Origin: a virus
Virus record (IMG/VR): IMGVR_UViG_3300038701_001932
Location: 1 to 26,672 of that record
Strand: one strand, 5' to 3'
Length of the DNA: 26,672 nucleotides
Below the pieces are notes generated by a model. It was not told where the DNA came from, searched no databases, and saw only the letters and a program-made list of their open reading frames with translations. Numbering within the stretch: position 1 is the stretch's first letter; every line of letters starts with the position of its first letter. The translations under genes were made by a program, and so were the position numbers. Below are positions 3,645-23,999 of this stretch, one piece after another.

Positions 3645-3808
3645 TTCCACAAATCAGGATTCAGGGCATGTGCTATCAGCGGGGCTGGAGGTTTGTTCTA
3701 AGTCAGCCTCGAAAGTACGCACGACGTAACTACCGTGGAATTGATTTGGTCTATCCGTCCATCTGGACGAACAAGAGGAGGAAGCGTGGACAACACCGAG
3801 CGGAATGA
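3641..3808 (+). CDS. Small basic hypothetical protein, 55 aa
   Basis: A 55-residue frame begins with a GTG that overlaps the lipoprotein stop (GTGA) and runs into the start of the next gene. The product is strongly basic (RKYARR, NKRRKRGQ), with aromatic residues and no membrane segment. The GTGA overlap is the same arrangement used by other coupled genes here, but there is no clear own ribosome binding site and no family is recognised, so the call is tentative. A nucleic-acid-binding role is possible from charge alone. Confidence 0.4.
   Translation: MIPQIRIQGMCYQRGWRFVLSQPRKYARRNYRGIDLVYPSIWTNKRRKRGQHRAE
3756..3769 (+). promoter_or_regulatory. Small hairpin before a GTG-start gene
   Basis: CGTCC (3756-3760) and GGACG (3765-3769) form a 5-bp stem with a 4-base loop, six bases before the AGGAGG ribosome binding site of the gene at 3786. 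It could influence translation of that gene. Confidence 0.25.
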
Positions 3809-4289
3809 ATATCTGGCCGACGAGTACCGAAAGGGTCGGACACTGGAGGAGCTTGGGCGAGAAGTCGGCATCTCTCGTGAGCGGGTCAGGCAGATCGTCG
3901 CTCAATTCGGGGCCAGTCGTCATGCAGGCGGCGCCTCAAAGCGTTCAGAGGACCGCAAGAAGAAGATTGAGTCCGAGCGCGACCAGCGATACCTCAAGAA
4001 GTACGGACTGACCCGTCAGGAGTACGTGGAGGCCCGTGACGCGGGCTATCAGAAAGCATGGGCGGACCAGAAGCGCAACGCACAGCGCCGAAATATCGGG
4101 TGGCACTTAACCCTAAAAGGGTTCATCGAAGTGTGGGAGGGGAAGTTTCACCTTCGAGGCAAGCGGCGGGATGCACTGGTGATGACCCGAATCGACCTGG
4201 ACCAACCCTTCACCAAGGACAACGTGAAGATTGTCACGCTGGCAGAGTCCGCACGACAGAACATCAACCGAATGCACAACAATGACTAA
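3786..4289 (+). CDS. HTH protein with HNH-like C-terminal phage domain, 167 aa
   Basis: Residues 18-40 (RTLEELGREVGISRERVRQI) form a sigma-70 region-4-like helix-turn-helix. A basic linker follows, and then residues about 97-160 contain NIGWHLTL, W117, VMTRID and PFTKDNVKIVT. That pattern matches a phage domain often annotated as HNH-type or homing endonuclease-like, in which a polar NVKIVT strand follows a conserved arginine/aspartate block. The combination suggests a DNA-binding, possibly mobile, protein; catalysis cannot be shown. The GTG at 3786, four bases after AGGAGGA, was preferred over the longer frame. Confidence 0.7.
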   Translation: MDNTERNEYLADEYRKGRTLEELGREVGISRERVRQIVAQFGASRHAGGASKRSEDRKKKIESERDQRYLKKYGLTRQEYVEARDAGYQKAWADQKRNAQRRNIGWHLTLKGFIEVWEGKFHLRGKRRDALVMTRIDLDQPFTKDNVKIVTLAESARQNINRMHNND

Positions 4290-7298: not shown

Positions 7299-7314
7299 GC
7301 GTACGTATGTAACG
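7299..7314. promoter_or_regulatory. Partial copy of the CGTTAC-N4-GTAACG operator
   Basis: GTAACG at 7309-7314 is an exact half-site. The left arm, GCGTAC, matches only TAC of CGTTAC. It lies in the divergent gap between genes at 6935-7192 and 7400, the kind of position where the two perfect copies also occur. Confidence 0.35.
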
Positions 7315-7399
7315 CGAAAAAGCCTTGCATGACGGCGTGACTAGGTGTCACTGTCCGGGGTGTCGGCGGCATGGGGTCGCCTGAGAGGAGGCGGCAGGA

Positions 7400-7567
7400 A
7401 TGACTCGGGCCGAATTGCTCGAACGGATAATCGCCCGCGCGGCTGAGGCGGAGGACTTGCTCGCCAGTGGTCGGCGTCTGACCGATCACGAGCGGCAGCG
7501 CGCCGAAGCGGCAATTGAGAGGGCGCTACGCGCTATTACGGATGATTCGGTAGGGACGCACGCCTAA
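7400..7567 (+). CDS. Small helical protein, 55 aa
   Basis: A 55-residue gene with a very good ribosome binding site (GAGAGGAGG, eight bases before the ATG). The product is almost wholly helical and highly charged: two amphipathic helices (AELLERIIARAAEAEDLL and ERQRAEAAIERALRAI) joined by a short turn. It has no recognised family. It could be a helical-hairpin regulator or an accessory partner. The perfect operator copy at 7569-7584 starts two bases after its stop. Confidence 0.65.
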   Translation: MTRAELLERIIARAAEAEDLLASGRRLTDHERQRAEAAIERALRAITDDSVGTHA

Positions 7568-7568
7568 C

Positions 7569-7584
7569 CGTTACAAGCGTAACG
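7569..7584. promoter_or_regulatory. Palindromic operator CGTTAC-AAGC-GTAACG
   Basis: A perfect 6-4-6 inverted repeat in the gap between the genes at 7400 and 7665, starting two bases after a stop codon. The same 6-4-6 arms recur exactly at 10744-10759. It is probably a dimeric regulator site controlling the 7665 cassette. Confidence 0.6.
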
Positions 7585-7594
7585 CATAAACCCA

Positions 7595-7615
7595 TTGCAC
7601 AGAATCACGAACTAG
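7595..7615 (+). promoter_or_regulatory. TTGCAC-CACGAAC element, copy 2
   Basis: TTGCAC (7595-7600) and CACGAAC (7606-7612) followed by TAG, 70 bases before the ATG at 7665. Spacing and distance match copy 1 at 5496-5517. It lies just downstream of the operator at 7569-7584. Confidence 0.45.
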
Positions 7616-7664: not shown

Positions 7665-8012
7665 ATGAACATTTACGATTTCGACCGGCCTATCGCGGAA
7701 CTCGACATCGACGTGCCCGCGTGGATCAAGCAGGACATCACCGGCGCCGACGTGGCCGCTATCTGTCAGGGCGGATGCGCGTCCGGTGCCTACATGCCGG
7801 CCGTTACGTATCACTCCGCACTGACCACGATGGGCGAGCACGGTGACGACGTGCTCCAGTTCATCGAGGACAGCATGGGCGAGCTGCCGACCCCGCCCGA
7901 GGGCGTCTCGTGGTCCGGGCTGGCGTGCCACTACCTGAGCACGGCCGTCGAGCTTTGGGCATCGTCCGTCGAGGATGAGGCCGAGCAGGAACTGGCAGAC
8001 CGCGCAGCCTGA
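7665..8012 (+). CDS. Hypothetical phage protein, 115 aa
   Basis: A 115-residue acidic protein. The central block ICQGGCASGAYMPAVTYHSA, followed by MGEHGDDVLQFIED and a W-rich segment (GVSWSGLACHYLSTAVELWAS), looks like a conserved phage family that I have no reliable function for. GAGGAG lies ten bases before the ATG. It starts a run of small accessory genes to 10246 and lies downstream of both the palindromic operator and the TTGCAC element. A UUCG-loop hairpin follows its stop. Confidence 0.75.
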   Translation: MNIYDFDRPIAELDIDVPAWIKQDITGADVAAICQGGCASGAYMPAVTYHSALTTMGEHGDDVLQFIEDSMGELPTPPEGVSWSGLACHYLSTAVELWASSVEDEAEQELADRAA

Positions 8013-9980: not shown

Positions 9981-10246
9981 GCCTATGGCCTTGCCCCGAA
10001 GTTTGGGCGGACACCTATGCAGAGATAGCCGACGACAGGCTAGCGATTCACTTGCAGGGTATCCGCTCAATCTATAACCGGCCGGCTGGCGAAACCGTCG
10101 AAAGTCTCCGCGCAGCAATTGACGCGCTTGCTGATGACGAATGCGAGGACTACTGGCAGCCCACCGAAGGAAACGCGCGGCGGGCGCTTGTCTCGCTAGT
10201 GAGGCTGGCCGAGATGCGCCCTGATGCAATCTGGCAGGGCGACTAG
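9977..10246 (+). CDS. Hypothetical protein, 89 aa
   Basis: An 89-residue acidic helical protein (EVWADTYAEIADDRLAIHLQGI, split here by function unknown; later VESLRAAIDALADDECEDYW). GTG at 9977 follows a GAGGAGGG ribosome binding site and overlaps the previous stop; a longer upstream frame is the shadow of that gene. It converges with the terminase small subunit gene: the two stops share CTAG at 10243-10246. Confidence 0.65.
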   Translation: MSLWPCPEVWADTYAEIADDRLAIHLQGIRSIYNRPAGETVESLRAAIDALADDECEDYWQPTEGNARRALVSLVRLAEMRPDAIWQGD

Positions 10247-10704
10247 TGAACGGACGGACGGTCCTCGGTGGTCCCTTGGCTTCCGAGGATTGCTCGCAAC
10301 TTTTCTTCAAGCTCCTGCCGAATTTCGGAGGCTTCTCGCGTGTCCCTGACTTCCAGAATGTCCGTGAACATGCCCGCAGTTTTGCCCAGAAGCTCGCAGG
10401 CTTTGATCTGCGTATTCATGGGGCGCCCGGTGTCCATGTTCTCGACAACCTCGCGGAGCTTCCCTGCCACGAGTTCAGCGTCGGTCATGAATCGACGCTT
10501 AGACTCAATCTCAAGGTCACGCATTCCATCCTCGACAATCCTGGACACACGAGGATCAGCGCGCAGGCGGGAGGCTTTCTCGTTGACCGACTTGTCGGTG
10601 TACCCGTCCGCATCGTATGCCTCGCGGTATGCCTCCTGCTGGCTCTTACCTTCGAGCAGCAGACGGGCGAAGTGTCGAGCCTTGGGGGAAAGTTCGCGAG
10701 CCAT
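10243..10704 (-). CDS. terS: Terminase small subunit
   Basis: The N-terminus is a typical small-terminase helix-turn-helix: LSPKARHFARLLLEGKSQQE (5-24), then EAYREAYDA and KASRLRADPRVSRIVEDG (residues about 43-60). The region LVAGKLREVVENMDTG and then KACELLGKTAGMFTD (101-115) is also characteristic of the family. A charged oligomerisation tail follows. It recognises phage DNA and delivers the ATPase/nuclease large subunit to it for packaging. Here it is alone on the minus strand, away from the virion genes; no large subunit is in the window. The ATG at 10704 with AGGTG upstream was preferred to a longer frame. Its promoter is at 10734-10763. Confidence 0.85.
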   Translation of the reverse strand: MARELSPKARHFARLLLEGKSQQEAYREAYDADGYTDKSVNEKASRLRADPRVSRIVEDGMRDLEIESKRRFMTDAELVAGKLREVVENMDTGRPMNTQIKACELLGKTAGMFTDILEVRDTREASEIRQELEEKLRAILGSQGTTEDRPSVH

Positions 10705-10733: not shown

Positions 10734-10763
10734 ATTCTAGGTGCGTTACATATGTAACGTCAA
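10734..10763 (-). promoter_or_regulatory. Strong sigma-70-type promoter of terS
   Basis: On the minus strand TTGACG (10758-10763) and TAGAAT (10734-10739) are each 5/6 matches to consensus, separated by 18 bases. The start point would lie about 20 bases before the ATG at 10704. The palindrome at 10744-10759 fills the spacer and overlaps the -35. Confidence 0.7.
10744..10759. promoter_or_regulatory. 16-bp palindromic operator CGTTACATATGTAACG
   Basis: A perfect 16-bp palindrome between the -35 and -10 of the terS promoter, the classic position for repression. It has the same 6-4-6 arms as the site at 7569-7584. It also lies in the gap before the divergent plus-strand gene at 10837, so it may control both directions. 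Confidence 0.75.
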
Positions 10764-10836
10764 ATGCGCTTGTGCAATTGTGCGCGAGCGGTGAAGATAG
10801 ACACATGCCGCATGGTGCGGCGAGGAGGAAGTTTTG

Positions 10837-11418
10837 ATGAAACCCGAAGAAATCAGAGACGACATCCCCGAGGACGTGCGGGAGGCACTGGCATCCATTA
10901 TAGCTGGATTGCCTTGTGCTCCGGGCAGCGTGCTTGCACAAATTCAAGACGCCATCCGCAAACGCCCCGCCACCGTCATCATCCCCCGCGCCGAGATTCC
11001 GGCGCCGCTGACGGAGGTGCCGGAGTCGGGCGAGGTGTGGGTGCTGATCGTCGACCCCTACATGCAGCAGCCGTCAAAAGTGAGCGGCGACACTGCGGCG
11101 CAAGCCGTCGAAAACCGCATCGCCTACGCCACCGAAGCCGACGCCCAGCGCGCCCTTGACGCCATGATGGCGCGGGAGCCGGTGGAGGCAGAAGCGAAGG
11201 CCGACGGCCTCTCCGGCCTCATCCCGTGGGCGGACCTGGACCCTGTGTGGAAATGGGCGGCGATGGATTCGGACGGGTTTTGGTACGTCTACGAAAAAGA
11301 GCCCAAGGCAGAGGGCGAATCTTGGGGGTCTAGTGGTGACTCCACCGTCCTCCCTATCCCCGACGGCGCCCCCGTCCCTTGGACCGAAACCAAGGTCCGC
11401 CGACCGGAGGGTGTGTGA
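10837..11418 (+). CDS. Hypothetical protein, 193 aa
   Basis: First gene of the coupled plus-strand operon to 15808. The N-terminal third is acidic-helical; the middle (EVWVLIVDPYMQQP, 60-73) is a folded segment; the C-terminal part is rich in tryptophan and aspartate (WADLDPVWKWAAMDSDGFWYV, split by GSS turns). This kind of W-rich tail is common in phage proteins of unknown function. GAGGAGG lies upstream; the ATG at 10837 was preferred to the TTG three bases earlier. It shares a divergent promoter region with terS. Confidence 0.7.
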   Translation: MKPEEIRDDIPEDVREALASIIAGLPCAPGSVLAQIQDAIRKRPATVIIPRAEIPAPLTEVPESGEVWVLIVDPYMQQPSKVSGDTAAQAVENRIAYATEADAQRALDAMMAREPVEAEAKADGLSGLIPWADLDPVWKWAAMDSDGFWYVYEKEPKAEGESWGSSGDSTVLPIPDGAPVPWTETKVRRPEGV

Positions 11419-21316: not shown

Positions 21317-23999
21317 ACTCCTCTAGCGCCTTTTCCTCATCAAACGCCAGCCCCGATGCAAGCATGAACGCTTCAACCTGCCTGCTCAGTCGAGCGGCTT
21401 CGCGCTGCGTGGTGGGCTTTCTCAGGAGAGTAACCATGTAGTCGGGGTTTTGTGCTGCCTCAAGCATGATTTGGCTCATGGTCTGAACCGGAGCGTCTTT
21501 CAGCTTGTTGCGAGCCATTTGGGCCATTCTTCCCGCCATGACCAGCGAAGACCCCATCCCTTGCCCCGCAATAGCCTGACCGAACTTGGCGCCCGCAAGG
21601 CTGGCAATCAAGTCTTCAAGTGCAGAAGGGTTCTCAACCAACTGCTCTAGCTCTCGGGGGTTGCGCTCAGCCATCATGACACGCTCTGCGGCTTGAGCCA
21701 TTTTGTTTAGCCGAGCACGCTCCTCACGGGTCATTGCCCCCGCTGCGATTGCGTCATCGCCGTACTTGTTCAGCATCTCTCTCAAAGCCGCCCCGTCGAT
21801 CAGCCCGTCCTTCCGCTGCGTCTGCGACAGCAAAGACTCCATGAAGGCGCTCTTTGCACCAGCTTTGGCGGCATCGTCCGCAGAGCGGACAACTCGGAAA
21901 ATGTCTCTGACTCTCTTGGTCGCCACTTCGGGCGCAACGTCGGGACCGCCCATCGCTCGGGTGAAGACTGTCGCGGGGCTGTCGGTGCCAACTAAGGACG
22001 CAAAGGCTCCGCGCTCTGCCGCCTTCCTGCGCCCTTCAAGGCGGGAGATTGCTCTGTCGCTGAACCGCTTTACTTGTTCCGCAGATGCCGTCAGGTTGTC
22101 TAGTTCGGGGAAATCAGAAAGCAGGTCAGCATTCGCCCTGCGCCAGCGAGCCAAAGCCCCCGGGCTGATTTCCCCCTCGGGGGTCCGCGTCTTGTCAATC
22201 ATCTCCCGAATGAACTGACTCTGAGTGTCCACCAGCTCTTCAAGCCGCTGGTTGCCTGCCTGAGAAAACCCTTCGACCTGAATAGGCGTGACAGCTTCTC
22301 GTTGCTCTCTGGCACGCAGAGCGCCGCGAGTACCGCCTGCACCAATAGTGGATTGCAACGTCATTTCTTCCGGCACGGCGGCAGCACCCGTCCGCTCCAT
22401 TCTGAGCGTCCGGCCAACAGAGCCTTGCGTGAATCGTTCGTTCAGGACACGAGAAAAAGCGCGAGCCGTAGAGGCGGCATCCCCGCCTACCGAGCTAAGG
22501 TCTTCAAGCGCACTGTCCGCAAGCATTCCAATGCGTCGAGCCCTTTGGAAATCGCCCGCAGCACGAGCCTGCCGCTGTTGGTCAAGAAGCTCTGACCGGA
22601 AAGAAAGCACCTCACCCGTCGTGATGGGCTTTGCGTCAGGCTTGGTCATCGCCCGCTTGGCACGGCGCACAAACGCCCTAATTGGCGCAGGAACCGAACC
22701 CTTGAAGAACTCTGGAAGCGTCTCGTCTTTGATCTCACGCATGGCGCTAACCGTGCTTTCTGTTGACAGCGGTGCGTCCTTGTCTACTTGTTCCCAAAGC
22801 TGACGCTCCGACTTGCGGGCATCGGACAGCGCGCCTTCCAGCAGCTCGCGAGCACGAACGTCAGGGTCGGCAACCCCCTCTCGCGCCACAAGCGACCCGC
22901 CAGCAGATTGCGCTCTGCGCTCGGCTTGTGCGATTCGAGCAATAACCTGCTTGTCAAACTGCTCTAGGCGAAGCTCGGCAGCGGCACGCAGCGCGGACGG
23001 AGAGCCTTGTCGCCTGAGCGCGTCAATCGTCTCTTCCATCAACGCCTTTGATTGCGCGTACTGATCTTTTAGCTCGCGCGTAGCCGTCGGGTCACGGAGA
23101 AGGGCGCGCTCAATAGCCAACAGCACGGGGGAGCCGGATGCTTGCCCCGCCGTCTCGCGGAAGGCGTTATCGAACCCTGCCAGAGCCTCTTCTATCGCCG
23201 CCGGCGATTCGCCAAACTCCGAAAGGCGCTGCCGCAGCATCTCGGCCGCAGCGCGCTCTCTGCCTTCGGTGGTAAGCGACTGCGCCCCCTGCCGAAACAG
23301 TGTTGCCCCCGATCCCGCAAGGCGAGACGCCCATGCAATAGGGTGAATAGAACCAGCGACCATCTCTGCAATAAGCGGTTTGACTTCGCTTTCAGGCTCC
23401 AGCCCAGCAGCAATACCCCCGGCCGTAGCCGCAGCACCAAGAGAGGCCATCTCCGTTCGGGCAAACCCAGGTTCGGTCAGAGCGGCTTGTCGAATGCCCG
23501 AGACGAAGCTCTGGCCTGGCGCAACGCCACGCTCTGCGGCAGGAAGACCACGGCTTGCACGGGAGACAAGATTTCGAGTTGCGGCATCTTGCGCCGCCTT
23601 CGCTGTTGCGGCCCTCGTCCCGCCGATGAAAGGTGCGGCCACCATCGGGGCGCCCGCACCCACAACCTCTCCAAATTGCTGCGCCCCTGCAAGCTCAGGG
23701 TCTTCGCTGGGAGGCGGCAGAAGTGAGCCAAGCTGCTCACCGCCACCAATCGGGCGCTCAATATCTACTCCGGGGATGACGTTGAGGCCACTGGTAACGA
23801 TGTCAACCGGGAGTCCAGCAACATTCTTCAGGAAACTGCGCGTGCCTTCTCGACCGACGGTGCCGGCTTTTTCCTCAAGCGTGGGAAGCGGTGGAAGCCC
23901 GTAGCCACCAAGGGCTCGCGCAAGACGACGCGCATCCTCTTCGTTCCCAGCCGCATCAGCTTTTCGGAGAGCGGCCTCAAGCTCTGCGCGAGTAGCCAT
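21315..23999 (-). CDS. Large virion protein, likely internal/ejection protein, 894 aa
   Basis: The largest gene. Residues 1-30 (RAELEAALRKADAAGNEEDARRLARAL, broken here) are a charged helical start. Residues about 45-165 are a hydrophobic, Gly/Pro-rich section (LPVDIVTSGLNVIPGVDIERPI, APMVAAPFIGGT). The rest is mostly Ala/Arg/Glu helix with coiled-coil blocks. No lysozyme or transglycosylase motif was found. With its two neighbours it forms a set of three genes of increasing size read in one direction, as for the T7 internal virion proteins gp14, gp15 and gp16. It would sit in the head and be ejected into the cell. ATG at 23999 overlaps the stop of the upstream gene. Confidence 0.6.
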   Translation of the reverse strand: MATRAELEAALRKADAAGNEEDARRLARALGGYGLPPLPTLEEKAGTVGREGTRSFLKNVAGLPVDIVTSGLNVIPGVDIERPIGGGEQLGSLLPPPSEDPELAGAQQFGEVVGAGAPMVAAPFIGGTRAATAKAAQDAATRNLVSRASRGLPAAERGVAPGQSFVSGIRQAALTEPGFARTEMASLGAAATAGGIAAGLEPESEVKPLIAEMVAGSIHPIAWASRLAGSGATLFRQGAQSLTTEGRERAAAEMLRQRLSEFGESPAAIEEALAGFDNAFRETAGQASGSPVLLAIERALLRDPTATRELKDQYAQSKALMEETIDALRRQGSPSALRAAAELRLEQFDKQVIARIAQAERRAQSAGGSLVAREGVADPDVRARELLEGALSDARKSERQLWEQVDKDAPLSTESTVSAMREIKDETLPEFFKGSVPAPIRAFVRRAKRAMTKPDAKPITTGEVLSFRSELLDQQRQARAAGDFQRARRIGMLADSALEDLSSVGGDAASTARAFSRVLNERFTQGSVGRTLRMERTGAAAVPEEMTLQSTIGAGGTRGALRAREQREAVTPIQVEGFSQAGNQRLEELVDTQSQFIREMIDKTRTPEGEISPGALARWRRANADLLSDFPELDNLTASAEQVKRFSDRAISRLEGRRKAAERGAFASLVGTDSPATVFTRAMGGPDVAPEVATKRVRDIFRVVRSADDAAKAGAKSAFMESLLSQTQRKDGLIDGAALREMLNKYGDDAIAAGAMTREERARLNKMAQAAERVMMAERNPRELEQLVENPSALEDLIASLAGAKFGQAIAGQGMGSSLVMAGRMAQMARNKLKDAPVQTMSQIMLEAAQNPDYMVTLLRKPTTQREAARLSRQVEAFMLASGLAFDEEKALEE

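Follow-up and report, generated by a model that had tools for sequence, protein, structure and literature searches.

Two perfect palindromes in a phage genome fragment

What is the function of a perfect palindrome in the promoter of a small terminase subunit gene (terS), and which protein would read it? The locus lies in a linear virus record, probably incomplete, that spans 26,672 bases and is referred to here as the window. A scan of the entire window returned the two perfect copies of CGTTAC-N4-GTAACG given in the initial annotation, at positions 7569-7584 and 10744-10759, and no other full copy. The partial copy listed at 7299-7314 held up on one side: its right arm, GTAACG, is intact, but the left arm carries all three mismatches. 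All three sites are intergenic, in agreement with the promoter and the gaps between accessory genes to which they had been assigned, and the scattering of many copies through coding sequence that had been named beforehand as a sign against a regulatory role was not seen, since both full copies in the window are intergenic. On the plus strand, GTAACG occurs four times in the window, at the three sites and at 23794, within a coding region.

We then compared these counts with chance. When up to three mismatches were allowed, 4 sites were observed against 5.6 expected in the window, and the motif is accordingly not over-represented. Shuffling was evaluated for palindrome types defined by an arm of 6 and a gap of 0-8. 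Some type of this kind was repeated in 34 of 200 shuffles of the whole window (17%), which is not rare, whereas repetition was rare in shuffles of the 2.8 kb of intergenic DNA (14 of 2000). Judged by sequence and placement, the palindrome pair is real and non-random, and one of its members sits as a repressor operator would on terS.

Positions of the palindromic sites, the terS promoter and the genes around them in the window
Feature	Position	Strand	Remark
terS, small terminase subunit	10243..10704	-	PHROG 51, E=1e-12
terS promoter, -35-like hexamer TTGACG	10758..10763	-	last two bases shared with the palindrome
terS promoter, -10-like hexamer TAGAAT	10734..10739	-	18-nt spacer
Perfect palindrome CGTTAC-ATAT-GTAACG, candidate terS operator	10744..10759	no strand	motif scan
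Second perfect palindrome CGTTAC-AAGC-GTAACG	7569..7584	no strand	motif scan; between two plus-strand genes
Intact right arm (GTAACG) of the partial copy, 7299-7314	7309..7314	+	left arm with 3 mismatches
TTG of GTAACG-N10-TTG, site 7299	7325..7327	+	
TTG of GTAACG-N10-TTG, site 7569	7595..7597	+	
TTG of GTAACG-N10-TTG, site 10744	10770..10772	+	plus-strand reading
ORF of 55 aa following the 7299 half site	7400..7567	+	no family match
Accessory gene (115 aa) following the 7569 site	7665..8012	+	relatives in 21 viral contigs
Accessory gene (193 aa), divergent from terS	10837..11418	+	two viral relatives

The terS promoter, read on the minus strand, places its two hexamers on either side of a spacer at 10757-10740, and this TTGACG-N18-TAGAAT arrangement is the top sigma-70-like match in the first 16 kb of the window. 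The palindrome had been described as filling the spacer, which is nearly exact, as it takes 14 of the 18 spacer bases, but it also overlaps the CG of the -35 hexamer. The terS ATG is located 40 nt past the 14-bp palindrome core. From this layout, a protein on the terS palindrome is expected to collide with RNA polymerase. The operator-like placement proposed in the initial annotation was supported both by this repressor-type position and by the presence of the same design in other phages.

A spacer-palindrome promoter class in other phages

No close relative of this phage emerged: nucleotide searches yielded no match among 50,697 phage records, and no TerS relatives were found in viral contigs; primase relatives reached only 45%, and the palindrome was absent from them. 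Promoters of the same design were seen in uncultivated contigs and in Xanthomonas Foxunavirus phages. They combine TTGAC or TTGY with RTTAC-N4-GTAAY and a -10 box, followed by an ATG 39-57 nt past the 14-bp core. Class members among the contigs are L049, L083, L117, L121, L122, L126, L127, L136, L137, L138 and L141. A scan of viral contigs with TTGACGTTAC-N4-GTAACG returned 15 loci, 8 of them with the core GCGC; 7 of these 8 lie in a gene leader (L083, L049, L117, L121, L122, L126 and L127), and most of the other 7 of the 15 fall within long ORFs. TTGACGTTACGCGCGTAACG precedes genes in L083, L117/L121/L122, L126 and L127. L049, which was retrieved without the promoter criterion, contains GTTACGCGCGTAAC four times, in every case shortly before a small gene and adjoining TTGAC or TTGC, and mostly with a -10-like box. 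The palindrome followed by N10-TTG was also tried as a marker, and was dropped since the 78 viral loci that it retrieved, L049 among them, were largely unrelated.

In a side-by-side alignment with the class, the terS promoter reads TTGAC-GTTACATATGTAAC-GCACC-TAGAAT, with the ATG at 40 nt and thus within the range of the class. An intergenic RTTAC-N4-GTAAY is present at 10744 and 7569 and absent at 7299, which is a half site. The TTGAC or TTGY directly 5′ of the palindrome, together with a -10-like box, is found at terS and at neither 7569 nor 7299, where no TTGAC stands beside the palindrome. The window cores are ATAT and AAGC, compared with the usual GCGC of the class, and ATAT is closest to the ATGT of L138. 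The terS promoter fits the class in every DNA feature and would work like it, as a candidate member.

A small protein family accompanies the promoter class

Near the class promoters, we found a protein family of about 65-72 amino acids whose alignments (A2 and A3) show the signature SEARKI-x-AGGRR-x-PGG-x-LPPDAAAALD, co-occurrence being judged where the flanking sequence was long enough. PHROG and NCBIfam gave no match for the family, and no match in Pfam was significant. It was absent from all other loci retrieved before the comparison. Using tblastn, the protein was identified in Xanthomonas phages FoX1-3, FoX5, M29, Murka and Kintu, and the M29 member (QWY14273.1) is annotated as a DNA-binding protein. 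Both the family and the promoter class were previously undescribed.

Since the window's own pattern had served to retrieve the first class contigs, the agreement of their arms is built in. In the reverse test, a scan with the protein only returned six new contigs (L129, L136, L137, L138, L139 and L140). In three of them, L136, L137 and L138, RTTACRYGYGTAAY palindromes are placed as in a promoter of the class. The whole genome of phage M29 contains three RTTACRYGYGTAAY-type palindromes and no instance of the control pattern. Because they were fetched by the protein only, L136-L138 and M29 constitute the independent support for the association. Four lineages that have the protein lack the palindrome (L129, L139, L140 and Kintu).

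An AlphaFold2 model of the protein (pLDDT 86) contains a helix, an extended stretch, a 12-residue helix and a long helix, and the predicted fold resembles ribbon-helix-helix. Since Foldseek gave no support for this fold, and Pfam gave none either, we infer it rather than assign it. In the L129 and L139 members, the residues of the predicted strand are altered (ARPTPRG and GRQVGV), and both contigs are without the palindrome; the predicted strand and the operator may vary together.

The statement in the initial annotation that the regulator is not obvious in the window was borne out, as neither a homologue of the small protein family nor a TetR_N domain (PF00440) was detected there; the record being a linear fragment, such absence is weak evidence. 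An HTH_3 repressor was likewise not found in L049 and L083. The window does encode, at 3786-4289, an ORF with a sigma-70 region 4-like helix-turn-helix (PF04545), whose PHROG match, to a sigma-70 decoy, is weak. Domains of the sigma region 4 type recognise -35 elements rather than dyads, and this ORF was therefore set aside as the regulator.

Proposed mechanism at terS

Switches with an operator placed in the promoter spacer are of a known kind. On balance, and with modest confidence, we favour promoter occlusion, in which a small phage repressor would block RNA polymerase at terS until relieved. The palindrome at 10744-10759 would be the operator of a dimeric repressor, and the bound dimer would cover the -35/-10 spacer and the -35 end of the promoter, so that RNA polymerase is kept off and terS remains silent; dilution, titration or shut-off of the repressor would release it. 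This protein would most likely be phage-encoded, outside the fragment, and plausibly of the small ribbon-helix-helix-like type found alongside such promoters in Foxunavirus and uncultivated phages. It may also bind upstream of plus-strand accessory genes, at the perfect 7569 site and, less probably, at the 7299 half site, where repressor action is less clear than at terS. Counting against this reading are the lack of a family homologue in the window, the deviating window cores, the missing TTGAC at 7569 and 7299, the lineages that have the protein without the palindrome and the lack of Foldseek support for the fold. In addition, no palindrome was found upstream of the relatives of the 115-aa gene in 21 viral contigs or upstream of the two viral relatives of the 193-aa gene. 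A common regulator tying packaging to the timing of accessory genes, as suggested in the initial annotation, is possible. A broader proposal, which we put forward only tentatively and regard as doubtful, is that the undescribed repressor family and the spacer-palindrome promoter form a portable module across unrelated phages, and that this module or a diverged version of it would hold terS back here, with packaging in step with the accessory genes. A dedicated terS switch would bear on how phages time the start of packaging.

Competing explanations

A feature on which the initial annotation had not remarked is the plus-strand GTAACG-N10-TTG, which is identically spaced at all three sites. Over the 25 bases past the three GTAACG arms, agreement is above that of 99.4% of random intergenic triples, and each site is followed at 93-101 bp by a plus-strand start codon (7400, 7665 and 10837). 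The palindrome may also serve the rightward genes, an option that had not been considered. Taken further, the sites could be mainly for rightward control, with an activator or dual regulator binding the palindrome at 7569 and 10744, or the right arm at 7299, and acting on weak plus-strand promoters; the overlap with the terS promoter would then be secondary, or the site would switch the divergent genes. The identical spacing, the downstream similarity and the positions of the ORF starts argue for this reading, as do TAG boxes at 7342, 7613 and 10798, weak candidates for -10 elements that have no good -35. However, the pattern comprises three sites only, the distances to the TAG boxes differ, with the box at 10798 about 10 bp further away than the other two, and a strong sigma-70-like promoter was not found at these positions. 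We hold control of mainly the rightward genes to be possible, though improbable.

The palindrome might instead act in RNA, as a hairpin of the leader transcript, or be a chance repeat without function. RNA hairpins of -5.6 to -7.4 kcal/mol form, leader hairpins are abundant in the window and the whole-window shuffles repeat palindrome types readily, but the terS palindrome lies upstream of the expected transcript start, no T run follows the palindrome, its intergenic recurrence is rare by chance and the promoter class recurs in other phages; we consider this reading very unlikely. An intrinsic terminator was rejected because there is no T run. A host regulator of the TetR, CopY/BlaI or another family could also bind the palindrome, in which case the phage would exploit host control. 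When a genome collection was scanned with the TTGACGTTAC-N4-GTAACG pattern and a -10 box, three Paenibacillus genomes (L090, L091 and L092) showed a match between a TetR-like-looking gene and a divergent NAD-epimerase-like gene, a likely operator of the adjoining TetR-like-looking regulator. The terS site contains TACATATGTA, which fits TACANNTGTA, the core of the CopR-CopY/BlaI operator (PMC7253601). This core is absent at 7569, where TACAAGCGTA violates the CopY rule; moreover, the Paenibacillus sites were retrieved with the window's own pattern. Control by a host protein is judged unlikely.

As a separate observation on leader hairpins, a perfect stem of at least 5 is present in 8 of the 15 leadered plus-strand genes, compared with 2.1 expected and a maximum of 6 in 500 shuffles. 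These hairpins are unrelated in sequence, lie 10-48 nt before the start codon and belong to the starts at 3786, 5565, 5840, 7665, 8056, 9299, 10837 and 13994.

Comparison with known systems

No match to the exact palindromes as an operator was found in the literature. Cluster O mycobacteriophages carry a 17-bp dyad repeat, TGTTCGG-N3-CCGAACA, in more than 30 copies (PMC4351075). Like the palindrome described here, it is short, perfect and dispersed in a phage genome, with many copies intergenic; it differs in its sequence, in its copy number (more than 30 compared with two) and in not being described as fixed in promoter spacers. Arc and Mnt of phage P22 are small ribbon-helix-helix repressors whose operators overlap the core promoter. 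Repression of terS by promoter occlusion would resemble these systems only if the regulator of this phage belongs to the candidate family; the operator sequence differs, and no sequence similarity to a Pfam model was detected for that family.

A further close parallel is provided by the Foxunavirus promoters, as in FoX3 and M29. In these phages, a TTG adjoins RTTAC-N4-GTAAY, a -10-like box lies shortly beyond, the ATG follows at about 40 nt, and the few copies per genome are located in gene leaders, all as at terS. The differences are that the Foxunavirus core is GCGC, GYGT or ATGT, whereas the window has ATAT and AAGC; that the leaders often share CACACCAAC, unlike those of the window; that the genes observed after the class promoter do not include terS; and that a small protein of the QWY14273.1 family is encoded nearby, with none seen in the window. 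The promoter class and its candidate regulator, although a by-product of the analysis of terS, may matter more than the terS switch itself, because they occur in cultivated Xanthomonas phages and can therefore be tested.
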